A DNA stretch of 64,000 nt from Candidatus Thiodiazotropha endoloripes (GTDB taxonomy: Bacteria; Pseudomonadota; Gammaproteobacteria; Chromatiales; Chromatiaceae), in NCBI GenBank assembly GCA_001709035.1, contig LVKA01000008.1:868001-932000 (forward strand), read 5' to 3'. The notes beneath the pieces are model-generated. The model was not told the origin of the DNA. It saw only the letters and a list, made by a program, of their open reading frames with translations, and ran no database searches. Shown one piece after another: positions 42,448 through 58,663 of this stretch; within the stretch, counting starts at the first letter, position 1; every line of letters begins with the position of its first letter. The position numbers and the translations under genes are program-made.

Positions 42448-43041
42448 ATGAGTCAGGTCAATCCAAAATTACTGATCGCATTGGCAGTAGTCATACTGTT
42501 TGCGGTTTATCTGAAAGTTTCCAATCCACATCGAAAATTCAGTACTCAGGAGTACTGGGCCGATGCAACGCTTCAGTCCGTTGCCGAGGTGCCCGATGAG
42601 GCTTTGGAACCAGGCAATAAAAATGGTGGTGTGCTGATGTGGGCGGCAATGGCTGTGGAGGATCCGCAGATCATCGAGGCGTTGGTGGCGCGTGGTGCGG
42701 AGGTCAATGAGGCCGATTCAATTTTCAAAGGTACTCCATTGACCGGTGCGGCGGGTTACAGCTCGAATCCGGCGGTGATCGATAAACTGATCGATCTGGG
42801 GGCGGATATCAATCAGCTGGTGAACAACGGTGAAGATGCTCTGATGATCGCTGCTCAGTATAACCACCATGGGCCTGTTGTTGATCGCTTGATCCATCAT
42901 GGAGCCGATACCGAGAGGAAAAACAGTCGTGGCATGCGTGCTGAGGATCTGGCGATAAAGAACAACAATCAACCGGCCATCAAGGTTTTTCAGGCCCGTT
43001 CCGACAAAGCGGGACAGGCTGGCCAACGCTATGGTTTGTAG
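42448..43041 (+). CDS. Membrane-anchored ankyrin-repeat protein
   Basis: This 197-residue protein starts at 42448, supported by AGGGAG five bases upstream. A single transmembrane helix at about residues 8-22 (LLIALAVVILFAVYL) is followed by ankyrin-type repeats from about residue 55: 'GGVLMWAAMAVEDPQIIEAL', 'GTPLTGAAGYSSNPAVIDKL', 'EDALMIAAQYNHHGPVVDRL', each ending in a GA(D/E) turn. The repeats therefore face the periplasm or the cytoplasm depending on topology; positive charge before the helix is weak. The partner is unknown. Confidence 0.75.
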   Translation: MSQVNPKLLIALAVVILFAVYLKVSNPHRKFSTQEYWADATLQSVAEVPDEALEPGNKNGGVLMWAAMAVEDPQIIEALVARGAEVNEADSIFKGTPLTGAAGYSSNPAVIDKLIDLGADINQLVNNGEDALMIAAQYNHHGPVVDRLIHHGADTERKNSRGMRAEDLAIKNNNQPAIKVFQARSDKAGQAGQRYGL

Positions 43042-43249
43042 GTGGTCAGATAACAGTGATCATGTAAAAAGTCTTTAATTTCAGGGGGTACTCGGCCTGG
43101 TTGGTCTATGCTCTTAAGCTGTGAATTCAGATAGTGTCATTGGTTGATTTTCTGCCTCTATCGCTTGCGAAAAGCAGCTGATGTTTTTCCTCTGACAACT
43201 CTGAAATTCCAGTCAATCGAGATTGAGAACAACGACAGGGAGTACCACA

Positions 43250-43435
43250 ATGCAATTCATGGATGCCAAGGCGATGTTCTTTTCTCAAAACTGGGAAGAT
43301 GCTGCCCGCTCCTCTCTGAAAAAACACAGGTTTCGGACGCATACCAAACTTGAACTTGAGGCATTTGAAAGCAAATTCGGCAAAGGGGCAGGTTTGTTAA
43401 CGCGTTCACTCTTACTTATAAGAGGCAGTCGCTGA
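43250..43435 (+). CDS. Short protein of unknown function, ribosome-binding-site supported
   Basis: This 61-residue open frame has AGGGAG seven bases before its ATG, the best initiation signal in the gap between the ankyrin gene and the next minus-strand gene. The product is basic and mixed in character ('AKAMFFSQNWEDAARSSLKK', then 'FESKFGKGAGLLTRSLLLIR'). There is no signal peptide or recognised domain. It could be real or a chance frame; the ribosome-binding site is the only direct support. Confidence 0.45.
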   Translation: MQFMDAKAMFFSQNWEDAARSSLKKHRFRTHTKLELEAFESKFGKGAGLLTRSLLLIRGSR

Positions 43436-43601
43436 TCAAATCCGACAGTCCGTAGGGAGAGACCGAACCGGTTTGACAGATTTTACACTTCAATAGCATG
43501 CGGTTTTGTAACCGAGTTTATGTCGATTGGTGCTGTCAATCTGGTGTGAGACTGGATCGATGGCCAATCGAGTGATTGATCCTGATCGCAAGATTGATGG
43601 A

Positions 43602-43919
43602 TTACTGGAATGAGGTCTCTTCCGGCTCCCCGGTGTTATCGATGACCACCTGCCTGACACCCTGCATACGGGAGACGATATAAGCCCCCATCATCAATGC
43701 CAACTGTTCATTGTCGGTCTCCAGGGCGGTGAGCAGTTTTCCTGCAACCAATTGGCAGCGCTGGGTATTGTCCGGATTTTTTACCCACTTCTGGCCAATT
43801 TGCCAGCCCTTGTTCATATCCTGATCCATTTTTTCGAAAGACTCATTCATGGCGTCAATATAGCCATCAGGTATTTCAAGGTTCATTGACCAGTCATCGA
43901 TAATAAGATTTAGTTGCAT
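43602..43919 (-). CDS. Conserved small protein of unknown function
   Basis: This is a 105-residue soluble acidic protein. Visible features are 'LNLIIDDWSMNLEIPDGYID', 'FEKMDQDMNKGWQIGQKWVK' and 'RCQLVAGKLLTALETDNEQL', a helical pattern with two cysteine-poor halves. No signal peptide, membrane helix or known motif is seen. It is divergent from the receiver-like gene at 44028 across a 108-base gap. I do not recognise a family. Confidence 0.65.
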   Translation of the reverse strand: MQLNLIIDDWSMNLEIPDGYIDAMNESFEKMDQDMNKGWQIGQKWVKNPDNTQRCQLVAGKLLTALETDNEQLALMMGAYIVSRMQGVRQVVIDNTGEPEETSFQ

Positions 43920-44027
43920 GGTACAGATCGACGGTTTACAAAATACTAAGATCCAAAACAGAGAGCCTCGGCGTTCAATTCGTCCGAGGGGATTATAATC
44001 AGGTCTTCGAAAGGTAAAATCAAGCGT

Positions 44028-44402
44028 ATGGAAGATCAGGAATTACTCGCCGTGGTTGAATTGGGTGGTTACCCGAATTTCATACCGCTCTATCAACGTC
44101 TGAACTTCAAGGTGGAGATGGTCAACTCGGTGCGCAAGGCCCAATCCTGGCTTAAGAAGCATCGTCCTCAGGTGGTTGTTGCAGAGTTCTATTCCGATCC
44201 GCAGTTCAGGGATCGTATGAGTAATCTGGAATCCCTGTTGGCAACCCTGCAACGTTACGATATCGAAGCTGGTATCGTTGTGCTGATCGACGCTAAATAT
44301 TTACAGCGACTGGAGGAGGTCAAATCCCGTTATGCGGTGCATGCGGTGCTGACATTTCCGGTCGACGAACAAGCAATGCAAACGGCTCTGGAATCACTAT
44401 AG
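44028..44402 (+). CDS. Degenerate receiver-like protein
   Basis: This 124-residue protein has the strand/helix pattern of a CheY-like receiver: 'LLAVVELGGYPNFIPLYQRL', 'VVVAEFYSDPQFRDRM', 'GIVVLIDAKYLQRL', 'HAVLTFPVDEQAMQTALESL'. The catalytic set is missing. There is no acidic pair after strand 1. The phosphoacceptor position reads Ala/Glu (VVVAEF) rather than Asp, and the conserved Lys before Pro is Phe (LTFPVD). It would not be phosphorylated in the usual way. It ends nine bases before the PiuC-type dioxygenase gene, so the two form a pair. The receiver assignment is from fold pattern only. Confidence 0.6.
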   Translation: MEDQELLAVVELGGYPNFIPLYQRLNFKVEMVNSVRKAQSWLKKHRPQVVVAEFYSDPQFRDRMSNLESLLATLQRYDIEAGIVVLIDAKYLQRLEEVKSRYAVHAVLTFPVDEQAMQTALESL

Positions 44403-44411
44403 GAGTTTCTG

Positions 44412-45086
44412 ATGTTGTTGGAAATTGAAGGTCTACTCGACTCAGCACTGTTACAGAAGATCGATCAGATACTGGCCGATGCGGAGTTTGTCGATGGCAA
44501 GCTGACGGCCGGTATGGCCGCACAGAAAGTCAAAAACAACCAGGAACTGAAAGGTTCACCAAAACAGATGGAATTGTTGATTCGGATTCTGACCAGTGCC
44601 ATGGGGCAGAATGGTACCTTTCGTTCAGCGGTTCTCCCTTTCCGGATGGCTGATCCGATCTTCGCCCGATACCATTCGGGGATGACCTATGGTGATCATG
44701 TGGATGATCCCATCATGGGGTTGAGTGGTCAGCGATTTCGCAGCGATATCTCGATGACCATTTTCCTTCGGGAGCCAGAAACATACGAAGGGGGCGAGCT
44801 GGTGATCCGCACCACATTCGGCGAAAAGAAGGTCAAGCTGGCGGCGGGCAGTGCGGTGATCTATCCCTCGTCAAGTCTGCATCATGTTGCCGAGGTGACC
44901 CGGGGTGAAAGGTTGGTGGCACTAGCCTGGATACAGAGTTATGTGCGCGATCCAGCGCGGCGAGAGCTGCTTTTCGAACTTGATCAGGCGCGGGAGGATC
45001 TCTTGATAAATCGTCCTGAAGAGTCGACTACCGGATTGGTGGATAAGTCCTATGCCAATCTGCTGCGGATGTGGAGTGATGTTTGA
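44412..45086 (+). CDS. Fe(II)/2-oxoglutarate-dependent dioxygenase, PiuC/YbiX type
   Basis: This is a 224-residue PKHD-type hydroxylase. The iron-binding facial triad is H96-x-D98 ('MTYGDHVDD') and H157 ('YPSSSLHHVAEVTRGERLVA'), and the 2-oxoglutarate-binding Arg is in the same segment. The length fits YbiX/PiuC proteins, which in other bacteria are iron-starvation-induced and sit with TonB receptors. No siderophore receptor is seen here. It follows the degenerate receiver-like gene by nine bases. The substrate is not established for the family. Confidence 0.9.
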   Translation: MLLEIEGLLDSALLQKIDQILADAEFVDGKLTAGMAAQKVKNNQELKGSPKQMELLIRILTSAMGQNGTFRSAVLPFRMADPIFARYHSGMTYGDHVDDPIMGLSGQRFRSDISMTIFLREPETYEGGELVIRTTFGEKKVKLAAGSAVIYPSSSLHHVAEVTRGERLVALAWIQSYVRDPARRELLFELDQAREDLLINRPEESTTGLVDKSYANLLRMWSDV

Positions 45087-45103
45087 TTATTGTGGGGTGA
45101 CTA

Positions 45104-45140
45104 GCTTACCAGGGTAAGGGTGATCCTTACCCTGGTAAGC
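45104..45140. terminator. Bidirectional hairpin between dioxygenase gene and DsrC-like gene
   Basis: A perfect 16-bp stem (45104-45119 with 45125-45140, core TTACCAGGGTAAGG) encloses a five-base loop between two convergent genes. Neither side has a strong T-run, but the stem stability and location suggest transcription termination for both genes. Confidence 0.72.
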
Positions 45141-45162
45141 GTCAGTAACTTAGCCGATCGGC

Positions 45163-45507
45163 TTAATAACCGCCCTTGCGCTTGGTTTCTGGCAGGCCGG
45201 CAATTTTACTTGCCTGCTTTGCCGGACCTTTGGGGAAGTGGATATAGAGTGCTTTCGCATCCACCTTGCCCTCATCGGTCCAGACGCCTTTGAAGTGCTT
45301 GACCATATTACGTTCGTTAGGCTGATTGCCACTGTTATTAATATATTCATCGCGCAGGAAGTTGATGATTTCCCATGCCTTTTCAGACAGGCTCACTCCT
45401 TCTTGCTCAGCAATGGCCTTGGCCACATCTTCACTCCAATCGGTCAGATTGACCAGATAACCGTTCGCATCAGCTTCGACTGTATTACCGTTTACTTCAT
45501 ATGACAT
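45163..45507 (-). CDS. DsrC/TusE-family paralogue without cysteines
   Basis: This 114-residue protein clearly belongs to the DsrC/TusE family ('MSYEVNGNTVEADANGYLVN', 'SEKAWEIINFLRDEY'; ending ASKIAGLPETKRKGGY). True DsrC here (51363-51695) ends CRFAGLPKPTGCI with the two redox cysteines. In this paralogue the first position is Ser100, the second is absent, and no cysteine occurs anywhere. It therefore cannot carry sulfur as a persulfide or trisulfide. It is the last gene of the minus-strand group divergent from dsrA. A regulatory or protein-binding role, for example at DsrAB or DsrK, is inference. Confidence 0.88.
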   Translation of the reverse strand: MSYEVNGNTVEADANGYLVNLTDWSEDVAKAIAEQEGVSLSEKAWEIINFLRDEYINNSGNQPNERNMVKHFKGVWTDEGKVDAKALYIHFPKGPAKQASKIAGLPETKRKGGY

Positions 45508-45658
45508 TGATCTCTCCTAACTAAATCACGAGACACGCTATCCCGTTAAATCAAATTTTGCTTTTGGAATTCTCTGTTCCGATCAGCGCCTGGATCATCT
45601 TCCAGGGTTGGTGTCTCGATAGAAACCCTGCTGACCGGTGAATTTGCAGCCTGTAATC

Positions 45659-46324
45659 TTAAACAGTCTTGTGTGGATTAAACAAGCCAAAGCCGCGAGT
45701 ACGCAGTGGGCCCAGTCCCTCCTCCTGCAGTGTGACGGCATCGTCCAGGGGTAGGCCAGCCACCATCAGGCTTTTTGTCATCAGTGCGCCGTCCGGCGTC
45801 TCAAACTGCTCGCCTTTGCCGCAAAGCACCTTGTTAAACCTCAACTTAAGTGCTTTCAGTTGTTCGACGGAGTGGTGCAGAAACTCATCTTCCGACTGAT
45901 TCTCCGCAGCGATCAAATGGCGGCAATAGAGGGTGGTCGTCATACCCAGCAGACGGGTATGACTTTTTCCCACTTCCAGACTGTGTCCATCGATATCCAG
46001 GATCTTGCCGGTCAGTGCGCCCGCGTCCTCAACTCGACGGTTGGGTAGACGTAGTATCAGCGGCGTACGTCTCGACAGATAGAGTAATTGGTCACTGCCC
46101 GAGGGGCGCTCCCAGCCGTTACCTGAATCCGCCCCGTAGATCAGATGCAGGCCGGTATTGGGTTCATCGGCAATCCAGGGCAATGCCTGCTGGATCGCCT
46201 GTGCCAGGGCCCAGGCGTGGTCGATGGGTAGGGTGGCGCATTTGATTTTAAACAGTAGATCCAGCACATTGTCCGGGACTACAAAACGCTCCTCATCTTC
46301 CTCTTCTTGCCAGAACATATTCAA
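45659..46324 (-). CDS. Cas6-like (Cmx6-type) RAMP-fold protein without CRISPR array
   Basis: This 221-residue protein has the layout of the Cas6/Cmx6 group. An N-terminal ferredoxin-like half has 'LLFKIKCATLPIDHAWALAQ', including a His in the LPxDHAWAL motif, and 'GLHLIYGADSGNGW'. Basic strands follow (LYLSRRTPLILRLPNRRVED). The C-terminal glycine-rich loop, 'LGPLRTRGFGLFNPHK', is typical of RAMP-family RNA-binding proteins. I see no repeat-spacer array and no other cas gene in 64 kb. It lies between a helical protein gene (7 bases away) and the DsrC-like gene on the minus strand, next to dsr. RNA binding is likely from the fold; cleavage activity is uncertain. Family recognition is by eye. 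Confidence 0.7.
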   Translation of the reverse strand: MNMFWQEEEDEERFVVPDNVLDLLFKIKCATLPIDHAWALAQAIQQALPWIADEPNTGLHLIYGADSGNGWERPSGSDQLLYLSRRTPLILRLPNRRVEDAGALTGKILDIDGHSLEVGKSHTRLLGMTTTLYCRHLIAAENQSEDEFLHHSVEQLKALKLRFNKVLCGKGEQFETPDGALMTKSLMVAGLPLDDAVTLQEEGLGPLRTRGFGLFNPHKTV

Positions 46325-46331
46325 CTCCAGA

Positions 46332-47042
46332 TCAGGCTACTGCGGGGATTTTGCTGCGCAGCGCTTCCCGGTCGTACCACCACTCCCCGTCAACGATCAC
46401 CTCGAGCACCGTTGCCAAACGGGGCAGGAATTTGGCGGGATCGTCCAGTTCCATGCGTTCCACCCAGAAATCGAAAATCTCCTGCTCTTCCACCTGGCTA
46501 TGGCGTCTGGCAACCTGGCCCATCAATTGGTTGGTGAAAAACCTGAGGTCTTCCTGGGCCTGACCCTCGGCACGCAGATCGACGATGTAGCAGGCGGTTG
46601 CCGCTGCCACCGCAGCACCATCCGAGTTATCCGGCGTTTCGTCGATCAGATGTTGCAGCATGGCGACACTGAGTTCAGGATCGATGGGAAAAGTGACCCC
46701 CAGCCAGATGCCGTGAGCCAGTGCTTTGGCACCATCTTCCTTCTCCGCCTGATAAAGCACATCACAAGCCTCCACCGCAGCCAGCCAGCTTTCTGAGTCA
46801 AGCGCCCTGTCAAACACGCTCTTGGCGATTTGCCAGGCTTCATCGTTGCGGTCCAGATCGAGCAGGATATAGCAGCTCTCAATCTCCATTGAGAGGCGCT
46901 GCTCAGAGGCGCTGTCTGTATCGAGCGCCTCCAGTTGTTGACGGAGCTCCTGCAGCTTTACTTCGAGAAGCTTGCTTGATTTGACAGCATCTTCAGCACT
47001 TTCGCTGTCTCCGAGAAAAGTTTCTGATTCCAAATACTTCAC
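46332..47042 (-). CDS. Helical-repeat protein of unknown function
   Basis: This 236-residue protein begins with GTG. It is almost entirely amphipathic helix with TPR- or SEL1-like periodicity: 'LEVKLQELRQQLEALDTDSA', 'AWQIAKSVFDRALDSESWLA', 'ALAHGIWLGVTFPIDPELSV', 'MLQHLIDETPDNSDGAAVAA'. It ends 'DGEWWYDREALRSKIPAVA'. There is no signal peptide. It ends 7 bases before the Cas6-like gene, so they are very likely co-transcribed. A scaffold role for the neighbouring RNA-binding-like protein is only a suggestion. Confidence 0.75.
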   Translation of the reverse strand: MKYLESETFLGDSESAEDAVKSSKLLEVKLQELRQQLEALDTDSASEQRLSMEIESCYILLDLDRNDEAWQIAKSVFDRALDSESWLAAVEACDVLYQAEKEDGAKALAHGIWLGVTFPIDPELSVAMLQHLIDETPDNSDGAAVAAATACYIVDLRAEGQAQEDLRFFTNQLMGQVARRHSQVEEQEIFDFWVERMELDDPAKFLPRLATVLEVIVDGEWWYDREALRSKIPAVA

Positions 47043-47088
47043 AGATCTCTACCCTGATTACTATTTTTGCCTTTGCTTACCCTGGAGC

Positions 47089-47265
47089 CTAGGTAAAGGC
47101 CGCTTCAAGGCGATCTTCCCAATTGTCCGGGGTATCCGCAAAGGGTGGTTTGACGTCGATACGGAAGAATACCTCCGTTTTCGAACGCTCTTTGACAACA
47201 TTCAGCAGTTGCTCAAAATTATCAACCTCTGGATGTTGCATCATGATCTCGCTCAGGTACAGCAT
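47089..47265 (-). CDS. Small protein (58 residues) at the head of the divergent cluster
   Basis: The open frame reads MLYLSEIMMQHPEVDNFEQL at the start and ends 'PPFADTPDNWEDRLEAAFT'. The composition is protein-like and acidic, and includes 'KTEVFFRIDVKPPF', which suggests a beta strand. It ends 46 bases before the GTG of the helical-repeat gene on the same strand. An AGG lies about ten bases before the ATG; a second in-frame start at Met8 or Met9 is possible. It is too short for many gene finders. Function unknown. Confidence 0.6.
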   Translation of the reverse strand: MLYLSEIMMQHPEVDNFEQLLNVVKERSKTEVFFRIDVKPPFADTPDNWEDRLEAAFT

Positions 47266-47720
47266 ACTTTATTTGCCTGTTTAAATACTTAGTAAAACGC
47301 TAGGATATTACTATTGAACAATATGCTTAAGCTGGGTTCAAGTCCTATCTGCAGTTAAATCGTGCAAATCTCTCCCTTGCAGAAAAAATGGGATATTCAC
47401 TTAATTGAGTAAATTGGGAATGGTTTATAACTCGCTGTGATTGCAGTAGTTATACCGGTAATAGTGTTTAAAATATGGCTGTTGAACAGCGATTATATAT
47501 CCCATTTGGGATAGATGTTTCTATCCCTGTCTCTCCCATCGGAAGGATATGGGTCAGCATTAGGAAACTCTAAACTTGCTGCCCAGTAGAAGCAGGCCCT
47601 GCCTGTGAGGTTAAGATTGCGGGTCGGTGGCCAGATTCTACAACTTGGTTTTCAGCCAAGAATAATTAGGATGTGCAAAATGCTGACGACCTCGATAAAC
47701 GACCATTGGGAGAAACAGTG
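47266..47720. other. Divergent regulatory region of dsrA and the accessory cluster
   Basis: This 455-base AT-rich gap has no credible gene. It holds the palindrome listed separately (47498-47513), further TGGGATA/TATCCC words at 47399-47405 and 47522-47527, and a small hairpin (CTTGG...CCAAG, about 47644-47661) in the probable dsrA leader. The dsrA ribosome-binding site GGGAG is at 47708-47712. Confidence 0.6.
47498..47513. promoter_or_regulatory. Candidate operator palindrome upstream of dsrA
   Basis: TATCCCA-TT-TGGGATA is a perfect 16-base palindrome about 207 bases before dsrA and 232 bases before the divergent small gene. The half-site recurs in the same gap: TGGGATA at 47399-47405 and TATCCC at 47522-47527. 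Such repeated dyads usually mark a dimeric regulator's binding site. I cannot name the regulator. Confidence 0.55.
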
Positions 47721-48962
47721 ATGGCAAAACAGATGCATGATACCCCCATGCTTGATCAGCTGGAGAGTGGCCCTTGGCCCTCATTCGTTACCGGCCTCAA
47801 GCGCCTCGCCAAAGACAACGATATGATGGTTGACCTACTTGGTCAGCTGGAGACTTCTTACGAAACCCGCAAAGGCTACTGGAAAGGTGGTACTGTGGGC
47901 GTTATCGGCTACGGCGGTGGTATCATTCCCCGTTTTACCGAATTGAAGGGTGATGACGGCCAGGCTCTATTCCCTGCCGCTGCGGAATTCCACACCCTGC
48001 GTGTTATGCCTCCTCCAGGCATGCACTATGACACCGACACCATTCGCAAATTCTGCGATATCTGGGAAAAGTACGGTTCCGGTTTGATTGCGTTCCATGG
48101 TCAGTCTGGCGACATCATGTTCCAGGGTTGTTCCACTGACAATGTTCAGCCTGCATTCGATGAGATCAACGAAATGGGTTTTGATCTCGGTGGTGCCGGT
48201 CCTGCGGTACGTACCGGTATGTCCTGTGTTGGTGCAGCACGTTGCGAAAACTCCTGCTTCGACGAGGGTCGTACCATGCGCATGCTGGTCAACAACGCCC
48301 TTGACGATATGCACCGTCCGGCGCTGCCCTACAAGTTCAAATATAAAGTCTCCGGTTGCCCGAATGACTGCATGAACTCTGTACAGCGCGCTGACCTGGC
48401 TACCATCGGTACCTGGCGCGATGACATGAAAGTCGATCAGGACGAAGTGAAAAGCTTCGTCGCTGAGAAAGGTCGCAAGTATGTCATCGACAATGTGATC
48501 ACCCGTTGCCCAACCCAGGCACTGTCATTGAATGATGACGACACCCTGGCGGTGGACAACCCCTCCTGCGTCCGTTGCATGCACTGTATCAACGTGATGA
48601 ACAAAGCGCTCTCTCCCGGCGACGACAAAGGCGTTACCCTGCTGTGCGGCGGTAAACGTACTCTGAAGATCGGCGACCTGATGGGTACTGTTATCGTGCC
48701 TTTCATGAAGCTTGAGTCTGATGAGGACTTTGAAACCCTGGAGGAGCTGGCTACCGAGATCCTCGATTTCTTCGCAGAGAATGCGCTGGAGCACGAGCGT
48801 ACCGGTGAGATGATCGAGCGTATCGGTCTGGTCAACTTCCTCGAAGGCGTCGGCCTGGAGATCGATCCGAACATGATCGAGCGTCCGCGTATGAATCCTT
48901 ATGTCCGCATGGATGGTTGGGATGAAGAAGCGAGCAAGTGGGCTGAACGCAAAGCGCAATAA
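47721..48962 (+). CDS. dsrA: Reverse dissimilatory sulfite reductase alpha subunit
   Basis: DsrA pairs with DsrB to oxidise reduced sulfur, delivered by DsrC, to sulfite in the cytoplasm; 413 residues. I chose the ATG at 47721 because GGGAG lies eight bases upstream. Landmarks are 'TPMLDQLESGPWPSFVTGLK', 'KGGTVGVIGYGGGIIPRF', the siroheme-cluster cysteines in 'CVGAARCENSC' and 'SGCPNDCMNSV', and the inserted ferredoxin-like segment with 'CPTQAL' and 'CVRCMHCINVMNKAL'. The neighbours dsrEFH and dsrL mark this as the oxidative (reverse) type, since sulfate reducers lack dsrEFH. It is first in the dsr cluster. A hairpin separates it from dsrB. Confidence 0.97.
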   Translation: MAKQMHDTPMLDQLESGPWPSFVTGLKRLAKDNDMMVDLLGQLETSYETRKGYWKGGTVGVIGYGGGIIPRFTELKGDDGQALFPAAAEFHTLRVMPPPGMHYDTDTIRKFCDIWEKYGSGLIAFHGQSGDIMFQGCSTDNVQPAFDEINEMGFDLGGAGPAVRTGMSCVGAARCENSCFDEGRTMRMLVNNALDDMHRPALPYKFKYKVSGCPNDCMNSVQRADLATIGTWRDDMKVDQDEVKSFVAEKGRKYVIDNVITRCPTQALSLNDDDTLAVDNPSCVRCMHCINVMNKALSPGDDKGVTLLCGGKRTLKIGDLMGTVIVPFMKLESDEDFETLEELATEILDFFAENALEHERTGEMIERIGLVNFLEGVGLEIDPNMIERPRMNPYVRMDGWDEEASKWAERKAQ

Positions 48963-48997
48963 TTCTATCTTCTGCTGATTGACAGCAGGTTGAAAGG

Positions 48998-49024
48998 GGG
49001 GCATCGGGTACGCCCGAATGCCCC
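48998..49024 (+). terminator. Hairpin between dsrA and dsrB (attenuator or processing site)
   Basis: GGGGCATCGGG-TACG-CCCGAATGCCCC forms an 11-bp stem with one bulged base. No T-run follows, so complete termination is unlikely. A role in partial termination or protection of the dsrA message is more plausible. Confidence 0.6.
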
Positions 49025-49063
49025 TTAAAACGAATCAATTACCCTATTTTTTTGGAGGTAGGT

Positions 49064-50134
49064 ATGTCGGAACCTCGTATGCCGATTGAGAGTGGCGTCC
49101 CGGAGATGGAGCCCTACTTGCACCCCGTCCTGAAGAAGAACTATGGCGAATGGGCCTGGCATGAGCGCCTGCGTCCTGGTGTCCTTCGTCACGTTGCCAA
49201 GAGTGGTGACAGTATCTGGACAGTGCGTGCCGGTACTCAGCGTCAGATGGACCTCTACACCATTCGTAAGTTGATGGATATTGCTGATGAGTTTGCTGAA
49301 GGCTACGTCCGCTTCACCATCCGTTCCAATATCGAGTACATGGTCGGTGATGAATCCAAGGTTCAACCACTGATCGACAAGCTGAATGCGGAAGGTTTTC
49401 CGATCGGTGGTACCGGTCCTTCGGTCTCCATGATCTCTCACACCCAGGGTTGGTTGCACTGCGACATCCCGGGTACCGACGCATCCGGTGCTGTTAAAGC
49501 ACTGATGGATGACCTCTACGACGATTTCGTAAAGGAAGAGATGCCCAACCGTGTACGTATCACCACCTCTTGCTGCCAGATCAACTGTGGTGGCCAGGGC
49601 GATATCGCAATCAACATCCAGCACACCAAGCCGCCTAAGATTGACCACAGCCAGGTGGCCAATGTTTGTGAGCGTCCTTCGGTTGTTGCTCGTTGTCCGG
49701 TTGCTGCGATCCGTCCTGCAATGGTTAACGGTAAGCCTTCTCTGGAAGTCGACGAAAAGAAATGTATCTGCTGTGGCGCCTGCTTTCCGCCATGTCCGCC
49801 GATGCAGATCAACGATCCAGAGCACTCCAAGTTCGCAATCTGGGTGGGTGGTAAGAACTCCAATGCCCGTTCCAAGCCGACCTTCCATAAACTGGTTGCT
49901 GCCGGTGTACCGAACAACCCCCCACGTTGGCCGGAGGTTTCCACCGTCGTCAAGCAGATCCTCAGCGCTTATAAAGAAGACGCCAAGGATTGGGAGCGCA
50001 TCGGTGAGTGGGCTGATCGTATCGGTTGGCCGAAATTCTTCGAAAAGACCGGTCTGCCTTTCACCAAGTATCACATCGATAACTGGCGTGGTGGTCGTAG
50101 CAACCTGAATGCCTCTGCTCACATCCGTTTCTAA
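49064..50134 (+). CDS. dsrB: Reverse dissimilatory sulfite reductase beta subunit
   Basis: DsrB completes the alpha2beta2 sulfite reductase, 356 residues. TTGGAGG supports the ATG at 49064. Siroheme-cluster cysteines are visible in 'TTSCCQINCGGQGDIAINIQ', and the ferredoxin segment in 'CICCGACFPPCPPMQI' and 'VARCPVAAIRP'. The N-terminal 'GVPEMEPYLHPVLKKNYGEW' and C-terminal 'WPKFFEKTGLPFTKYHIDNW' are typical. Together with DsrA it holds siroheme that DsrN amidates. The 101-base gap from dsrA contains the hairpin described separately. Confidence 0.97.
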   Translation: MSEPRMPIESGVPEMEPYLHPVLKKNYGEWAWHERLRPGVLRHVAKSGDSIWTVRAGTQRQMDLYTIRKLMDIADEFAEGYVRFTIRSNIEYMVGDESKVQPLIDKLNAEGFPIGGTGPSVSMISHTQGWLHCDIPGTDASGAVKALMDDLYDDFVKEEMPNRVRITTSCCQINCGGQGDIAINIQHTKPPKIDHSQVANVCERPSVVARCPVAAIRPAMVNGKPSLEVDEKKCICCGACFPPCPPMQINDPEHSKFAIWVGGKNSNARSKPTFHKLVAAGVPNNPPRWPEVSTVVKQILSAYKEDAKDWERIGEWADRIGWPKFFEKTGLPFTKYHIDNWRGGRSNLNASAHIRF

Positions 50135-50178
50135 TAACGGTTGCAGTTGTATAGGCGATTAACAGGAAGGTCATACTG

Positions 50179-50571
50179 ATGAAATTTGCGATTCAGGTAA
50201 ACGAAGGTCCGTACCAACATCAGGCTACGGACTCAGCGTACCAGTTCACCAAAGCCGCGCTGGAAGGCGGGCACGAAGTGATGCGTGTCTTTTTCTATCA
50301 CGACGGTGTGAATAACGGTACCAAACTAACAACCCCGCCACAGGACGATCGTAATATCGTCAACCGGTGGTCGGAACTGGCGAAAAAATACGATCTCGAC
50401 ATGGTTGTCTGCGTGGCAGCAGCCCAGCGTCGAGGCATCGTTGATGAAGGCGAGATGCAGCGTAACGGAAAGGACGCTGAAAATATCGCTGACAATTTTC
50501 GTATCTCCGGTCTCGGGCAACTGGTCGAAGCGGGCATTCAGTCCGAACGACTGGTGGTTTTCGGTGATTAA
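50179..50571 (+). CDS. dsrE: Sulfur relay protein DsrE
   Basis: This subunit of the hexameric DsrE2F2H2 sulfurtransferase passes sulfur to DsrC; 130 residues. The active-site cysteine is C78 in 'DMVVCVAAAQRRGI', the same number as in A. vinosum DsrE. The N-terminus 'MKFAIQVNEGPYQHQATDSA' is typical of the DsrE/TusD family. Presence of dsrEFH separates sulfur oxidisers from sulfate reducers. It is 44 bases after dsrB and 16 bases before dsrF. Confidence 0.96.
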   Translation: MKFAIQVNEGPYQHQATDSAYQFTKAALEGGHEVMRVFFYHDGVNNGTKLTTPPQDDRNIVNRWSELAKKYDLDMVVCVAAAQRRGIVDEGEMQRNGKDAENIADNFRISGLGQLVEAGIQSERLVVFGD

Positions 50572-50587
50572 AGCATAGAGGTTGATC

Positions 50588-50998
50588 ATGTCTGAGCAGA
50601 TAAAAAAATTCATGTACCTCAACCGCCGTGCACCCTATGGCACCATCTACGCCTGGGAGTCACTGGAAGTTGTGTTGATCGGGGCAGCGTTTGACCAGGA
50701 TGTAAGTTTGGCTTTCCTGGATGATGGTGTGTTTCAGTTGGTTAAGGGGCAGGACACCGCTGAGGTGGATATGAAGAATTTCTCCCCCACCTATCAGGCA
50801 CTGGGTGACTACGATGTGACCAAGCTTTTCGTCGAGAAAGAGTCTCTGGAAGAGCGTGGTTTAACGCTCGATGATCTGATGCCGCTCACCTATGAGGACG
50901 AAGACGATGATTGGGCCGAGAAGGATTCAATCAAAGTTGTGAGTCGTGCTGAACTGGCTGACATCATGGAAGAACAAGATGTCATGTTTAGCTTCTAA
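50588..50998 (+). CDS. dsrF: Sulfur relay protein DsrF
   Basis: This second subunit of the DsrEFH complex has 136 residues and is related to TusC. The ATG at 50588 has AGAGG six bases upstream. Family text is 'KKFMYLNRRAPYGTIYAWES', 'GAAFDQDVSLAFLDDGVFQL', 'DVTKLFVEKESLEERGL'. It lacks the DsrE-type active-site cysteine, as usual. It is structural in the heterohexamer. It lies between dsrE and dsrH with short gaps. Confidence 0.95.
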   Translation: MSEQIKKFMYLNRRAPYGTIYAWESLEVVLIGAAFDQDVSLAFLDDGVFQLVKGQDTAEVDMKNFSPTYQALGDYDVTKLFVEKESLEERGLTLDDLMPLTYEDEDDDWAEKDSIKVVSRAELADIMEEQDVMFSF

Positions 50999-51013
50999 TC
51001 CGGAGTATTGAAT

Positions 51014-51319
51014 ATGAGCACGCTACACACAGTCAATAAATCACCCTTCGAGAAGTCTTCCATGGACAGCTGTCTGGCCTACGCCAAACAGGGCAGCGCC
51101 GTGCTGATGTATGAAGATGGTATCTATGGTGCGATCAAGGGCACAGCGATTGCTGACAAGATTGCTGCGGCAAGCGGTGTCAGCTTCTATGTGCTGGGCC
51201 CCGACCTGAAAGCGCGCGGTGTCGCTGAAGACAAGGTCGTTGATGGTATCGAAATCGTGGACTATCCCAAGTTTGTCGCCCTCGCGGCTGAGAACGACAA
51301 AGTACAGGCTTGGGTCTGA
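51014..51319 (+). CDS. dsrH: Sulfur relay protein DsrH
   Basis: This third subunit of DsrEFH, related to TusB, has 101 residues. CGGAG eight bases upstream supports the ATG at 51014. The conserved cysteine is C20 ('SSMDSCLAYAKQGSAVLMYE'), matching the usual DsrH position. The C-terminus 'IEIVDYPKFVALAAENDKVQ' is typical. It completes the relay that loads DsrC, encoded 43 bases downstream. Confidence 0.95.
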   Translation: MSTLHTVNKSPFEKSSMDSCLAYAKQGSAVLMYEDGIYGAIKGTAIADKIAAASGVSFYVLGPDLKARGVAEDKVVDGIEIVDYPKFVALAAENDKVQAWV

Positions 51320-51362
51320 TTAGTTTACTGAACAACTCTGTAACGTAATTTGGAGAGAAAAT

Positions 51363-51695
51363 ATGGCTATCGAAGCAAACGGTAAGACCTTCGAAACTGA
51401 TGAAGAGGGTTACCTGACCAACTTGGGCGAATGGGAGCCTGCTGTTGCTGAAGTTATGGCGGCAGAGGATGACCTCGAGCTGACCAGTGAGCATTGGGAG
51501 ATCATCAACTTCCTGCGTGAGTACTATGAAGAGTACCAGATTGCTCCTGCCGTTCGCGTTCTGACCAAGGCTGTTGGTAAGAAACTGGGTAAGGAGAAAG
51601 GCAACTCTAAATATCTGTATGCCCTTTTCCCATATGGTCCTGGTAAGCAGGCTTGCCGTTTCGCCGGTCTGCCTAAGCCTACTGGCTGTATCTAA
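51363..51695 (+). CDS. dsrC: Sulfur carrier protein DsrC
   Basis: DsrC accepts sulfur from DsrE and presents it to DsrAB; its oxidised form is linked to the DsrMKJOP complex. It has 110 residues. The flexible C-terminal arm keeps both redox cysteines, C98 and C109 (ACRFAGLPKPTGCI), the penultimate Cys being diagnostic. The body matches the family ('ETDEEGYLTNLGEWEPAVAE', 'TSEHWEIINFLREYYEEYQI'). A hairpin with a GCGA loop follows the gene. A paralogue with no cysteines is encoded at 45163-45507. Confidence 0.97.
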   Translation: MAIEANGKTFETDEEGYLTNLGEWEPAVAEVMAAEDDLELTSEHWEIINFLREYYEEYQIAPAVRVLTKAVGKKLGKEKGNSKYLYALFPYGPGKQACRFAGLPKPTGCI

Positions 51696-51710
51696 GAGAC
51701 CTATACACTA

Positions 51711-51738
51711 GGCGGGTGAATGGCGACATTCATCCGCC
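51711..51738 (+). promoter_or_regulatory. Hairpin with GNRA tetraloop after dsrC
   Basis: GGCGGGTGAATG and CATTCATCCGCC pair over 12 bp (one G-U) around the loop GCGA, a stable GNRA tetraloop. It begins 15 bases after the dsrC stop and has no T-run. It may protect the 3' end of a processed dsrC message, which would raise DsrC over the downstream membrane genes; that effect is inference. Confidence 0.65.
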
Positions 51739-51773
51739 GGTGAATCAGACCAACACTAGAGGAACGCAGGAAC

Positions 51774-52496
51774 ATGTCATCTGTCTACGCGTTGCTGTTT
51801 ATCGTAGCGACCATCGTTCTGGTAATTGGCTTGACGAGAAAAATCGTCCAGTATGCCAAGACACCTGCACCACTAAAGATTCCCACGACTCCGGCGCCTG
51901 TGACTCAGACCGGGGTTGTATTCAGACTGTTTCGCGAAGTTGTACTCTTTGAAAGTCTGTTCAAGAGCACTAAGTGGACCTGGATATTTTCCTGGATGTT
52001 CCACATGGGCCTTTTCCTGGTCCTGCTGAGACATGTGCGCTACTTCATCGATCCTGTATGGCTGCCTATCCAGTTGATACAGCCCTTCGGTAAGTATGCT
52101 GCCTTTGCCATGGTGGCAGGTCTGGCGGGTCTGCTGGTTCGACGCATTTTCGTTGACCGGGTTCGCTACATCTCAGCGCCATCCGACTACCTTTGGTTGT
52201 TGATTCTGCTGACGATCGGCATGAGCGGCGCCATGATGACATTTGTCATCCACACCGATGTGGTGGCAGTGAAGCAATTTTTTATCGGATTCTGGACCTT
52301 AAGCGGTGGTGAGCTGCCGATGGATCCGATCCTGTTGATACATTTGACTCTGGTTGCTGTGCTGATGATCTTGCTGCCATTCAGCAAGCTGCTGCATATC
52401 CCCGGGGTCTTCTTCAGCCCAACCCGTAATCAAGTGGACAATCCGCGTGAGCGTCGTCACTTGGTCGAGTGGGCCAGAAAGTTTGAAGAGTCTTAA
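51774..52496 (+). CDS. dsrM: DsrMKJOP complex cytochrome b subunit DsrM
   Basis: This integral membrane cytochrome b of the NarI type has 240 residues. About five hydrophobic segments are seen (near 2-20, 72-90, 105-125, 142-165, 185-205). Histidines in 'MFHMGLFLVLLRHVRYF' and 'LIHLTLVAVLMILLPFSKLLH' are likely haem b ligands. It exchanges electrons between DsrK in the cytoplasm and the quinone pool. The ribosome-binding site is AGGAAC-type before the ATG. It is followed by dsrK with a 28-base gap. Confidence 0.93.
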   Translation: MSSVYALLFIVATIVLVIGLTRKIVQYAKTPAPLKIPTTPAPVTQTGVVFRLFREVVLFESLFKSTKWTWIFSWMFHMGLFLVLLRHVRYFIDPVWLPIQLIQPFGKYAAFAMVAGLAGLLVRRIFVDRVRYISAPSDYLWLLILLTIGMSGAMMTFVIHTDVVAVKQFFIGFWTLSGGELPMDPILLIHLTLVAVLMILLPFSKLLHIPGVFFSPTRNQVDNPRERRHLVEWARKFEES

Positions 52497-52524
52497 GTCC
52501 ACGCTTGGCCGATGAGGATTACTA

Positions 52525-54063
52525 ATGGCTGGAGCTGAATTCGAAACACCGGAACTGAGTGAACACATCGAAGTTCCTGAATTGGTCGAAGGTACCATGG
52601 AGCATATCACTTGCTTTGTGGCCAAACCTGAACATCAGACAGATTTGGGATTTCCCGGTGAGAAAGTAGAGAACTGGAAAGAGGTCGCTATCGACAAGAT
52701 GGGCGATCTGCTGAGCCGCTATCGCTCATTCCAGGTTTTCATGGATGCCTGTGTGAAATGTGGTTCCTGTACGGATAAATGCCACTATTTTCTCGGTACC
52801 CAGGATCCCAAGAATATGCCTGTGGGTCGTCAGGACCTGCTGCGTAAAGTCTATCGTCGCTACTTCACCTTCGCCGGAAAGTACTTTCCGAAACTTGTCG
52901 GCGCTGTCGATTTGAGCGAAGAGATCATCGACGATTGGTACAGCTATTTTCACCAGTGTTCACAATGCCGACGTTGCTCAGTGTTCTGTCCATATGGCAT
53001 CGATACTGCCGAGATCTCCATGGCTGCCAGAGAGATTCTCGATTCCATCGGTGTCGGTCAGAAGTACTGTAACGAGATCATCGGTAAGGTACACAAGATC
53101 GGTAACAACCTGGGCCTGCCCGGACCTGCTATCCTCGACACCCTTGAAGGTTTGGAGGAAGATGTTTACGAAGAGGATGAAGTCGCCGTTAAATATCCGC
53201 TTGATGTGAAAGGCGCCGACATTCTTCTGGTTACCCCTTCAGCTGACTTCTTTGCCGAGCCCCATGTGGATGGCTTGATTGGTTACGGAAAGGTCTTCCA
53301 TGAAGCCGGTGTCAGCTGGACATTGAGCACCAAAGCTTCAGAAGCCGGTAACTTCGGCATGTTCATCGGCAGCTATGAAAATATGCGCCGGGTATCGCTG
53401 AGAATCCGTGAAGCGGCTTTGGAGCTTGGTGTTAAACGCATCGTCTTTGGTGAGTGTGGTCACGCCTGGCGTATCGCCTACAGTTTCCTCAACACCCTGG
53501 CGGGTCCCTTCGATTTCCTCGATCCGGACTATCCGGTACCACAGCATATCTGTGAGTTCACCCTGAATGAGATCGAAAAGGGTACCCTGGAGTTCGACAA
53601 GTCTGAAAATGATGACATGTCGATCACCTTCCATGATTCATGCAACGTGGCCCGTGCTTCCCGTATGGGCGACACACCGGGCGGCCAGTTTGAGATTCCC
53701 CGTAAAGTCATCAAGGCAGTCGTCAACAACTACCACGACATGGAGTGGGACACCATCCATGAGCGCACCTTCTGCTGCGGCGGTGGTGGTGGTCTGCTGA
53801 CCGATGATTTGATGGAAGTGCGCGTCAAAGGGGCGAAGCCTCGGATGAGCGCCTTCAAAAATGTCATGGAAGAGAAAGGTGTTACCCATTTGGCTGCGAT
53901 TTGCGCCATCTGCAAGAGTCAGTTCACCAAGGTATTACCTTACTACGGTATGGATATGTTTCAGGTCGTCAGTGTTCACCAATTGGTCAGTAATGCCATT
54001 GTGTTGAACAGAAAAACGCCGCCCGAGGAAGCTCCGGGCTATGGCGAAGATGATGATGATTAA
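52525..54063 (+). CDS. dsrK: DsrMKJOP complex iron-sulfur subunit DsrK (HdrD-like)
   Basis: This is a cytoplasmic catalytic subunit of 512 residues, similar to heterodisulfide reductase HdrD, that is expected to oxidise reduced DsrC. Two [4Fe-4S] motifs are at C76, C79, C82, C86 ('DACVKCGSCTDKCHYF') and C145, C148, C151, C155 ('QCSQCRRCSVFCPYG'). The C-terminal part carries CCG-type motifs for a special catalytic cluster: 'FGECGHAWRI', 'HDSCNVARASR' and 'FCCGGGGGLLTDD', plus 'CAICKSQF'. Acidic residues end the protein. It is the usual partner of DsrM in the same operon. Confidence 0.95.
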   Translation: MAGAEFETPELSEHIEVPELVEGTMEHITCFVAKPEHQTDLGFPGEKVENWKEVAIDKMGDLLSRYRSFQVFMDACVKCGSCTDKCHYFLGTQDPKNMPVGRQDLLRKVYRRYFTFAGKYFPKLVGAVDLSEEIIDDWYSYFHQCSQCRRCSVFCPYGIDTAEISMAAREILDSIGVGQKYCNEIIGKVHKIGNNLGLPGPAILDTLEGLEEDVYEEDEVAVKYPLDVKGADILLVTPSADFFAEPHVDGLIGYGKVFHEAGVSWTLSTKASEAGNFGMFIGSYENMRRVSLRIREAALELGVKRIVFGECGHAWRIAYSFLNTLAGPFDFLDPDYPVPQHICEFTLNEIEKGTLEFDKSENDDMSITFHDSCNVARASRMGDTPGGQFEIPRKVIKAVVNNYHDMEWDTIHERTFCCGGGGGLLTDDLMEVRVKGAKPRMSAFKNVMEEKGVTHLAAICAICKSQFTKVLPYYGMDMFQVVSVHQLVSNAIVLNRKTPPEEAPGYGEDDDD

Positions 54064-54142
54064 AGATACGATTAACTAGCGCAACATAGATTCCTACCCT
54101 GTGTAGGGCACGACCAAGATAAGTTCTATAAGGAGACTGAAT

Positions 54143-56089
54143 ATGGCAACTCCTAGCGAAGAGATGAAAGAAGACGTTACTTGGCGTCGTTTTGAAGACG
54201 GCGACAATGAGTGGGATGATTGGGGTGATAAGATCTTCCAGGAAGATACATCCTACAAGTGCCCTACCTATATCAACCGTACGCCTCCCTGTCAGGGTGG
54301 CTGTCCGTCTGGTCACGACATCCGTGGCTGGCTGGCGATCGTACGTGAGCAGGAAAAACCTTCCGAAGGTATGGAGTGGGAACAGTATGCGTTCGAGCGT
54401 GCTGTCGAGGCCAACCCTTTTCCTTCCATGATGGGCCGTGTCTGTCCGGCACCCTGTCAGGATGGCTGTAACCGTAACGAGGTTGAAGACTTCGTCGGCA
54501 TCAACTCGGTTGAGCAGTACATCGGTGATACCGCCATCGAGAAAGGTTTCAAATTTACCCCTGGCGCCGATACCGGTAAAAAAGTCGCGGTAATCGGTGG
54601 TGGACCGGCTGGTATGGCTGCTGCCTTCCAGCTGCGTAAAATGGGTCACGGGGTTACCGTATTTGAAAAAGATCCTGAACTTGGCGGTATGATGCGTTAC
54701 GGCATCCCCAACTATCGTATTCCGCGCGATAAGCTGCAGGCTGAGATTCAGCGTATTTTGGATATGGGCGTAGAGACCCGTACCGGCGTCAAAATCGGTT
54801 CCGATGTTCCGGTTGCTGATCTCGAAAAAGAGTACGATGCCATTCTTTGGGCACTGGGTTGCCAGAATGGTCGTGATCTGCCGGTTGATGGCTGGGTCGG
54901 TACACCAAACTGTGTCTCAGGTGTCGCCTTCCTCAAGGCCTTCAACGAGGGTCGCATGAAGGTCACTGCGAAGAACGTGGTCTGTATCGGTGGTGGTGAT
55001 ACCTCCATCGACGTAATTTCAGTCGCCCGACGTCTCGGCACCAATGACGCGGCTGGTAAACCTGAAGATGTGGTTCTCGATATCACGATGAATCAGGATG
55101 ATGCACTGGCCGATGGGGCAGCACCTGCCAACGCCACATTGACCTCTCTGTTCACCAAGGACAAGATGTTTGCTGCACAGCACGAGATTCACGATGCACT
55201 GCATGAAGGCTGTGAGATTCTGGATGGTGTGATGCCTCTGGAAGTGATTCTCGGTGCTGACGGTCGTGCGACCGGACTGAAGGTTTGTGATTGTACAATG
55301 GACGGTATGACCCCGGTTCCAACTGAAGGTACCGAACGTGTACTGGAAGCTGACCTGATCGTATCCGCGATTGGCCAGAGTGCCGATATGGATGGCCTGG
55401 AAGATATGGCCAATGATCGTAACCTGATCGATGCGGACAAGTTCTATCAGGTACCCGGTAAAGAGGGTCACTTCGTCGCTGGTGATATCGTTCGTCCTCA
55501 TCTGCTGACCACCGCGATTGGTCAGGCATCCATTGCCTGCGAAAGCATCGATGCCTATATGACTAAGAAAACGATGGCCAAGCGTCCCAAGGTAGATGTA
55601 CACCACTTCGACCTGCTGGATAAGCTGAAAGAGGCCGATATGGCGCCCGAAGCCTTCGATAAGAATGAAGGTGATCTGCGTGGTACCAACTCTGCGAAAT
55701 TTGCTGTCCACAACTATGAGGATCGTTCCCGTCAGGAGGTTATTCCTGCCAACGATCTGTTCCTCGGCCACTTCGAATTCACACCGCGTCTGCTGCGTTC
55801 AGAAGATGTTCCTACCGCTGATGAAGTATTACACCACTTCAAAGAGCGTATGAATGGTCTTAACCAGGAACAGGTGCAGGAAGAGGCCAAACGCTGCATG
55901 AGCTGCGGCATGTGTTTCGAGTGTGACAACTGTGTGGTTTTCTGTCCTCAGGATGCGGTATTCCGTGTCAAGCGCAATGAGACCACCACGGGACGCTATG
56001 TGGACACAGACTACAACAAGTGTATCGGTTGTCATGTTTGTACCGATGTCTGCCCAACTGGTTATATCCAAATGGGGTTAGGTGAATAG
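54143..56089 (+). CDS. dsrL: DsrL, iron-sulfur flavoprotein NAD(P)H oxidoreductase
   Basis: DsrL is a 648-residue flavoprotein of the glutamate-synthase small-subunit family, essential for sulfur oxidation in A. vinosum, where it is the electron acceptor for rDsrAB. AAGGAG precedes the ATG. The N-terminal cluster motif is in 'TPPCQGGCPSGHDIRGWLAI' with 'CPAPCQDGCNRN'. The FAD loop 'VAVIGGGPAGMAAAFQLRKM' is near residue 150 and the NAD(P) loop 'NVVCIGGGDTSIDVISVARR' near 280. The C-terminus adds two [4Fe-4S] motifs ('CMSCGMCFECDNCVVFCPQD', 'CIGCHVCTDVCPTGY'). It is placed between dsrK and dsrJ, the oxidative-type order. Confidence 0.95.
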   Translation: MATPSEEMKEDVTWRRFEDGDNEWDDWGDKIFQEDTSYKCPTYINRTPPCQGGCPSGHDIRGWLAIVREQEKPSEGMEWEQYAFERAVEANPFPSMMGRVCPAPCQDGCNRNEVEDFVGINSVEQYIGDTAIEKGFKFTPGADTGKKVAVIGGGPAGMAAAFQLRKMGHGVTVFEKDPELGGMMRYGIPNYRIPRDKLQAEIQRILDMGVETRTGVKIGSDVPVADLEKEYDAILWALGCQNGRDLPVDGWVGTPNCVSGVAFLKAFNEGRMKVTAKNVVCIGGGDTSIDVISVARRLGTNDAAGKPEDVVLDITMNQDDALADGAAPANATLTSLFTKDKMFAAQHEIHDALHEGCEILDGVMPLEVILGADGRATGLKVCDCTMDGMTPVPTEGTERVLEADLIVSAIGQSADMDGLEDMANDRNLIDADKFYQVPGKEGHFVAGDIVRPHLLTTAIGQASIACESIDAYMTKKTMAKRPKVDVHHFDLLDKLKEADMAPEAFDKNEGDLRGTNSAKFAVHNYEDRSRQEVIPANDLFLGHFEFTPRLLRSEDVPTADEVLHHFKERMNGLNQEQVQEEAKRCMSCGMCFECDNCVVFCPQDAVFRVKRNETTTGRYVDTDYNKCIGCHVCTDVCPTGYIQMGLGE

Positions 56090-56097
56090 GAGCTGAG

Positions 56098-56574: not shown

Positions 56575-56576
56575 AG

Positions 56577-57329: not shown

Positions 57330-57352
57330 TCTGAGGGGAGCTAGGATTCAAA

Positions 57353-58540: not shown

Positions 58541-58580
58541 TCGATCTTTCATCCTCGAAAATCGAACAGGATTGATAGAG

Positions 58581-58612
58581 ATCCATCACCGCTTTGCGGT
58601 GGTGGATTTTTT
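58581..58612 (+). terminator. Intrinsic terminator after dsrP
   Basis: ATCCATCACCGC pairs with GCGGTGGTGGAT over 12 bp (one G-U) around a TTT loop (58581-58607) and is followed by TTTTTT. It starts 41 bases after the dsrP stop. It separates dsrA-to-dsrP from dsrNRS, which must be reached by read-through or by another promoter. Confidence 0.88.
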
Positions 58613-58663
58613 GTTTACAGCGTAGGATGTAGTCAGCTTACTTGAAAACCATTCCCATCAGCC

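Follow-up and report, generated by a model that had tools for sequence, protein, structure and literature searches.

A gene group divergent from dsrA

In sediments, at vents, and in animal symbioses, reverse Dsr is responsible for much of the oxidation of sulfur, and the list of its parts is generally regarded as complete. At the locus examined here, a gene for a relative of a CRISPR RNA-cutting enzyme is found near dsrA. The locus lies in a 64,000-nucleotide stretch of the genome of Candidatus Thiodiazotropha endoloripes (contig LVKA01000008.1, positions 868,001 to 932,000; hereafter, the window), in which four genes on the minus strand, from 47265 down to 45163, diverge from dsrA on the plus strand (47721..48962; open reading frame (ORF) and profile), the head of the dsr cluster. 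The genome is 4.87 Mb in size, and its near relatives are named Candidatus Thiodiazotropha. The link of this group to dsr and its independence from CRISPR are well supported, and we hold both with high confidence. Tentatively, and as our best guess, we favor a gammaproteobacterial accessory module dedicated to dsr, in which RNA processing may be gated by a DsrC mimic.

All four genes are encoded on the minus strand. The first, p58 (47089..47265), is an ORF for 58 residues for which a family alignment was obtained. It is followed by p236 (46332..47042), an ORF with a GTG start for an all-helical protein of 236 residues, predicted by AlphaFold2 to form a TPR-like solenoid. The third gene (45659..46318) was identified by profiles and alignment as encoding a Cas6-like protein (PF09559) with a conserved His36 and a C-terminal glycine-rich loop. 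Its ORF extends to a TTG at 46324 (45659-46324; 221 residues), from which residue numbers are counted here, and homologues start at the residue encoded by the ATG codon at 46318. The last gene (45163..45507) encodes a cysteine-free DsrC paralogue of 114 residues with an RKGGY end, assigned by PF04358 and alignment. The ORFs, profiles, and model therefore bear out the four genes that the original prediction had described back to back with dsrA.

Co-occurrence of the gene group with dsr

Co-occurrence was analyzed in a class sample of 370 gammaproteobacterial genomes and a phylum sample of 299 genomes, each genome being at least 90% complete, and in a relatives search of 56 genomes that counts the window's own genome. 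In the class sample, where dsrA was called above the curated cut-off, the Cas6-like gene was present in 128 genomes and dsrA in 123; 120 genomes had both, and 239 had neither. p58 was found in 114 of the 370 genomes; of these, 109 had dsrA and 113 had the Cas6-like gene. All three genes occurred together in 108 genomes, and 14 dsrA-bearing genomes gave no p58 match. In 90 of the 128 genomes that have the Cas6-like gene, it lay no more than 10 kb from dsrA. The proposed link of the gene group to dsr is thus strongly supported by the presence of the Cas6-like gene in 120 and of p58 in 109 of the 123 dsrA-bearing genomes. Among closer relatives, the Cas6-like gene was found in all 22 genomes of the genus and in 38 of the 56 genomes of the relatives search.

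Eight class genomes had the Cas6-like gene without a full dsrA. Two of these (G229 and G269) contained a partial dsrA, and in four (G095, G116, G146, and G314) at most 2.3 kb separated the group from a contig end in the direction of dsrA, which may therefore have been cut off. G389 encodes a true CRISPR Cas6, recognized by eye from genes of cas3 and cas8 size together with a probable WYL regulator, and G298 (91% complete) is unexplained. Conversely, three genomes had dsrA without a match to the Cas6-like gene; in two of them, p58 (G142) and an RKGGY paralogue (G130) were each found at the contig edge where the Cas6-like gene would come next, and the third, G220, is taken up below. The RKGGY end was detected in 13 of the 15 genomes checked for the paralogue (G130 with a partial gene).

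For the gene neighborhood, 98 loci (L031-L128) were scanned with profiles made for this analysis, and counts were made on the 83 loci with at least 1.9 kb upstream, 11 shorter loci and 4 duplicates or fragments being dropped. dsrAB was found nearby at 72 of the 83 loci. At these 72 loci, p58 and the GGY-ending paralogue were each present 69 times, the TauD-like oxygenase 38 times, and either p236 or the TauD-like oxygenase 71 times. The full group is present at L065, a locus of Sedimenticola selenatireducens. The other 11 loci, which include the named Thiotrichaceae Thiomargarita, Thioploca, and Marithrix, had no dsrAB in the stretch examined, and seven of them carried p58 and the Cas6-like gene with no other partner. 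Three more distant genomes contained dsrA, the Cas6-like gene, a paralogue ending in GKGGY, and a TauD-like gene, and gave no p58 match. On these results, the Cas6-like gene looks like the hub of the group and is often accompanied by p58, p236, and the paralogue. As the neighborhood recurs in dozens of genomes and the Cas6-like gene and p58 track dsrA in the class, the gene group is not a product of chance. The genes were not found mostly outside dsr-bearing organisms or unlinked to each other (dsrAB at 72 of 83 loci, p58 at 69 of the 72), and linkage and co-occurrence strongly support the original view of the group as an accessory system.

All four genes were also retained, although scattered away from dsrA, in three single-contig genomes of 1.2-1.5 Mb (G129, G320, and G386). 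There, p58 and p236 formed a pair, a second locus carried the Cas6-like gene and, at a distance of 6.6-8.3 kb, the RKGGY paralogue, and the Cas6-like gene was at least 42 kb from dsrA. Among the smallest genomes, six of about 1.0-1.1 Mb (G071, G160, G260, G288, G339, and G403) kept p58, the Cas6-like gene, and dsrA, and the paralogue was adjacent to the Cas6-like gene in all four of these that were checked. The order in G160 was dsrA, p58, Cas6-like gene, and paralogue, all inside 3.5 kb.

The Cas6-like protein and CRISPR

The Cas6-like protein scored 173.8 bits against Pfam PF09559 (cut-off 26.7) and 96.9 against NCBIfam TIGR02807, just below the cut-off of 98.85, and matched six PADLOC Cas6 models. 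H36, G211, G213, and F215 were invariant across 48 aligned rows, and H36 and the loop glycines were also present in two cyanobacterial CRISPR Cas6 proteins. We take the position of H36, in the first helix, to be that of the catalytic histidine of other Cas6 proteins. The best solved relative, 8FCJ chain B, is a type I-B Cas6 (E 2e-22) and has N at the His36 position. The main dsr-type clade carried an SGNGWxRP insert, which was absent from the two aligned CRISPR relatives and from the distant L129.

A tree of 28 rows had a 99/92 branch between the 25 rows of the dsr type and the 3 rows of CRISPR Cas6. The two cyanobacterial-plasmid CRISPR relatives sit in type I-MYXAN operons, and L132, a true CRISPR homologue whose neighbors are, by eye, of cas3 and cas8 size, scored only 121 bits. 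No Cas1 was found in the window's genome. Among the 38 relatives with the Cas6-like gene, Cas1 was lacking in 21 and present somewhere in the genome in 17; in Fisher tests on gene co-occurrence, which count genomes as independent, the association of Cas1 with the Cas6-like gene among the 56 relatives had an odds ratio of 4 (p 0.07), leaning slightly against independence of the two. Array-like repeats were detected at 2 of 148 related loci, a weak test in that many loci were short or overlapping and two true CRISPR plasmid stretches also gave none. Because Cas1 is missing from the window's genome and the tree sets the dsr type apart from CRISPR Cas6, the gene group is not a CRISPR part.

Roughly 3 kb separate the Cas6-like gene of G361 from a 19-copy CRISPR-like array (L141:3487-4655); by eye, no cas genes were recognized between the two. 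All 48 rows matched TIGR02807 at E ≤ 1e-5, and public annotation may therefore call many of these proteins CRISPR Cas6 and overstate CRISPR in sulfur bacteria, where such labels may be functionally wrong.

A DsrC paralogue without cysteines

The DsrC paralogue scored 114.1 bits against PF04358 (cut-off 24.9) and 99.2 bits against the TusE/DsrC/DsvC family (TIGR03342). It was 43% identical to the canonical DsrC encoded in the same window (51363..51695, plus strand; ORF and profiles), which has both C-terminal cysteines (..KPTGCI). The score against PRK11508 (TusE) was 93.2, with a cut-off of 191, and the penultimate cysteine of TusE was absent. The window's paralogue contains no cysteine, ends in RKGGY, and therefore cannot serve as a sulfur relay. 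Among relatives, 84 paralogues were chosen by their GGY end, a choice that itself excludes the last cysteine. All 84 ended in RKGGY and lacked a cysteine in the first DsrC cysteine column, the second column being G; 76 had no cysteine at all, 7 had one, and 1 had two elsewhere. The paralogue fits the cysteine-free DsrC-like class that is reportedly called RspA in a 2014 review; a literature search did not confirm the name. In A. vinosum, Alvin_1508, which belongs to the TusE/DsrC family, decreases together with dsrAB on pyrite, according to the available part of PMC11267869. Viral DsrC was considered as a source of the paralogue and rejected, the six matching phage records being at most 45% identical; the viral group is described, in the available part of PMC4164917, as lacking the second cysteine only.

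p58 and p236

Searches of Pfam, NCBIfam, and PADLOC, and of the PDB with profiles, gave no significant match for either p58 or p236. The p58 model had a mean pLDDT of 90 and a pTM of 0.69, and a fold search with it against the PDB gave no match at E ≤ 0.001. The AlphaFold2 model of p236 also had a mean pLDDT of 90 and was all helical. Its best Foldseek match had an E value of 0.021, and VIA-align gave Z scores of 9.8-13.8 among the 50 matches listed, many of them TPR-like solenoids, although helical repeats reach such Z scores easily.

The control region and its operator

The likely start of dsrA is the ATG at 47721, as judged from a conserved stretch preceding ATGGCAAAA. With the start placed there, p58 and dsrA share an intergenic region of about 455 bp (47266..47720), which contains the palindromic operator TATCCCATTTGGGATA at 47498..47513. 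By motif scan, this is the only exact TATCCC-N4-GGGATA found in the whole genome. In a survey of 80 loci including close relatives (L001-L030, L039, and L044 were omitted as duplicates or for range), the motif with up to two mismatches was found within 420 bp upstream of dsrA at 67 loci, compared with about 2 expected from shuffles, the loci not being independent. It was also found in 9 of 15 stretches upstream of unlinked or second-copy dsrA; the other six, such as those of G361, G304, and G120, had none.

The family in which the group is split from dsrA indicates to which side the operator belongs. The site was kept upstream of dsrA with 0-2 mismatches in four genomes, and upstream of p58 and the Cas6-like gene the best candidates had at least 4 mismatches in the three of these genomes that were checked. 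Because the site stays with dsrA in this family and is missing upstream of the other two genes, it belongs at least to dsrA, and a role as the module's own switch is unsupported there. Of the shared control region originally proposed, the common intergenic stretch stands, but the operator itself follows dsrA alone in the split family.

The operator was also considered as an RNA hairpin for the Cas6-like protein. Among 48 altered pair cells, 35 broke the pairing, 12 gave wobble pairs, and 1 was compensatory. The hairpin was rejected, and because many more changes disrupt the pairing than preserve it, the operator reads as a DNA site and not as an RNA stem. TATCCCA and TACCCCA were among the commonest half-sites, 2 bp apart; a NarL/FixJ-type operator (7-2-7), with inverted TACYYMT-like heptamers at that spacing, is a possible reading.

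A second dsrAB was observed in the window's genome (G000:C14:15310-16509; L202, L221). An operator copy with two mismatches was located upstream of it, and dsrC, dsrEFH, and the four group genes gave no match within the surrounding 19 kb.

Proposed function of the module

In our preferred explanation, the hub would be the Cas6-family protein, kept for sulfur oxidation outside CRISPR immunity. The invariant active-site residues suggest that it most likely still binds and cuts structured RNA, probably a dsr-related transcript, and such cutting may determine how much of the Dsr proteins is made or in what proportions. The paralogue, having no cysteines, would mimic DsrC without transferring sulfur; by docking on DsrAB, DsrEFH, DsrK, or the Cas6-like protein, it would couple the module to sulfur flow. 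In the putative complex, the TPR-like p236 may be a scaffold and p58 a small partner. The group may have a part in regulating dsr expression or the partners of DsrC, as was originally suggested. Still more tentatively, it is possible that a Cas6 endoribonuclease left CRISPR immunity early in Gammaproteobacteria and became a dedicated RNA-processing switch for reverse Dsr, gated by a sulfur-blind DsrC mimic.

Candidate RNA targets were sought in the dsr operons of related loci (L031-L128, L129-L131, and L148; the window's own gaps were unscored). Strong stems (z < -2) were found in the dsrA-dsrB gap at 67% of 69 loci and in the dsrC-dsrM gap at 78% of 64 loci, and were rare (0-18%) in the other dsr gaps; both kinds of stem vary in sequence. 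The dsrC-dsrM stem passed in one of five operons of other classes and was present in G130 (z -3.1) and nearly so in G220 (z -1.9), both class genomes without a match to the Cas6-like gene. It is the best target lead, the outsiders being too few to decide. At the genus level, an alignment of 19 dsrA leaders folded better than column shuffles (z -11), a weak control in that shuffling destroys local order. A structured dsrA leader was rejected as a shared element, as by eye its stem was not common across families. In A. vinosum grown on sulfide, the dsrEFH and dsrC transcripts exceed that of dsrA, according to the available part of PMC3397948, which cites Grimm et al. 2010. An RNA-processing enzyme could produce a pattern of this kind.

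Several results weigh against the RNA-processing explanation. No RNA target of the Cas6-like protein was found: no hairpin sequence shared among dsrA leaders was seen by eye, and an Rfam scan of window 43000-60000 gave no match at E up to 1. The dsrA-dsrB stem was missing at about a third of the 69 class loci and was present in five of six operons of other classes that have dsrEFH and lack the Cas6-like gene. In other-class operons with no dsrEFH found in the stretch, it occurred in 1 of 12 (18 operons in all, 33%). In view of those five operons, and because both stems were absent at 5 of 63 class loci, the dsrA-dsrB stem was not accepted as the target; the dsr operon stems are real but show no specificity for genomes that have the Cas6-like gene. 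On the gene side, p236 was present at only 49 of the 72 dsrAB-linked loci, G304 and G388 had the Cas6-like gene, p58, and dsrA with no match reaching the RKGGY end, and G220, with dsrA and the paralogue and no Cas6-like gene, appears to be a true exception. Finally, of the 36 dsrA-bearing genomes in the phylum sample, all four of this class had the Cas6-like gene and none of the 32 of other classes did. Dsr as such therefore does not need it, and the module is a feature of one class, the Gammaproteobacteria, and not of Dsr generally.

Alternative explanations

We rank the RNA-processing explanation ahead of a role in protein assembly, which we regard as rather unlikely while still deserving serious weight. 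Here, the group would be a protein-level maturation or assembly factor for DsrAB/DsrC, in which the paralogue occupies the docking site for DsrC on DsrAB or directs a partner, p236 is a TPR-like scaffold, and a non-catalytic Cas6 fold binds protein. The DsrC paralogue and the TPR-like solenoid point to protein contacts, and the SGNGWxRP insert, which the two aligned CRISPR relatives lack, and the two iron/2-oxoglutarate (2OG) oxygenase genes that often adjoin the group (TauD-like at 40 and PKHD-type at 33 of the 83 loci) are consistent with such a role. The invariance of the active-site histidine and of the glycine-rich loop would, however, be unneeded, and DsrAB of other classes manages without the Cas6-like gene.

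A module linked to tRNA or translation seems improbable. The paralogue, with a TusE-like fold, would meet tRNA-modifying enzymes, and the Cas6-like protein would handle a tRNA or small RNA important in sulfur oxidation. The paralogue does match the TusE/DsrC/DsvC family, the Cas6 fold binds RNA, and TusE acts in tRNA 2-thiolation; but the window's paralogue has no cysteine, and the gene link is to dsrA.

That the Cas6-like gene is a CRISPR remnant or serves CRISPR arrays in trans, as the name of TIGR02807 (type I-MYXAN Cas6) implies, is very improbable. The match of this model to all 48 rows, the Cas1 genes of 17 of the 38 relatives, and the array at L141 would fit it, but Cas1 is lacking in the window's genome and in 21 of the 38 relatives with the Cas6-like gene, array-like repeats were found at only 2 of 148 loci in what was a weak test, and the protein is split from CRISPR Cas6 in the tree and follows dsrA in its presence. 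Least credible of all is that the genes are old neighbors of dsrA by inheritance and chance, with no joint function: the arrangement is widely distributed in the class and possibly old, but the genes are retained with dsrA both after scattering in single-contig genomes and in genomes of about 1 Mb, and of the eight genomes with the Cas6-like gene and no full dsrA, just G298 is unexplained.

Neighboring features

A perfect 16-bp inverted repeat (45104..45140), a probable two-way terminator, was located between the convergent ends of the gene group and a gene for a PKHD-type Fe(II)/2OG hydroxylase (44412..45086, plus strand; profiles). Membership of this convergent neighbor in the group is doubtful; its relatives are those counted above near 33 of the 83 related loci. 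A 124-residue protein encoded at window 44028-44402, beside the PKHD-type gene in several loci, had a weak match to the VpsR domain below the cut-off (E 0.006). A gene for a TauD-like Fe(II)/2OG oxygenase (PF02668) often heads the group at the 40 loci that carry it (for example, L078:8870-9790), beside p236 or replacing it. No TauD-like oxygenase was matched in the window at E ≤ 1e-4.

Comparison with known systems

What is new is the system as a whole; the Cas6 and DsrC families are already known. The results suggest that sulfur metabolism has recruited an RNA enzyme of the CRISPR type, and a Cas6 protein working wholly outside CRISPR would be, to our knowledge, a rare case. Our searches of the open-licence PMC literature showed no link between Cas6 and dsr, and a report elsewhere is possible. 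The four group genes are not named among the dsr genes in the available parts of PMC3368242, PMC10504309, and PMC6397845. As the Cas6-like gene accompanies nearly every dsrA in the class sample and p58 most of them, and both are yet unnamed as dsr genes in those parts, a step or control of probable importance to the pathway has been missed.

The gene group stands head to head with the same reverse Dsr cluster as that of Allochromatium vinosum (dsrABEFHCMKLJOPNRS, as given in the available part of PMC3368242) and follows this cluster across the class. The p236 model aligns over about 130-190 residues with TPR-like scaffolds such as Rap proteins, KLC, and LGN, and p236 has no sequence relative in Pfam, NCBIfam, or the PDB. 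By profile, the paralogue belongs to the same family as the sulfur relay proteins DsrC, TusE, and DsvC, but it lacks the two C-terminal cysteines that carry sulfur. The Cas6-like protein is homologous over its whole length to type I-MYXAN and I-B CRISPR Cas6 (TIGR02807 Cas6/Cmx6; PF09559), and P33, D35, H36, L40, and the C-terminal glycine loop are common to the dsr-type proteins and the two cyanobacterial CRISPR Cas6 proteins. Unlike the genes for CRISPR Cas6, however, the dsr-type genes have dsrA, p58, and the DsrC paralogue as neighbors instead of cas genes.

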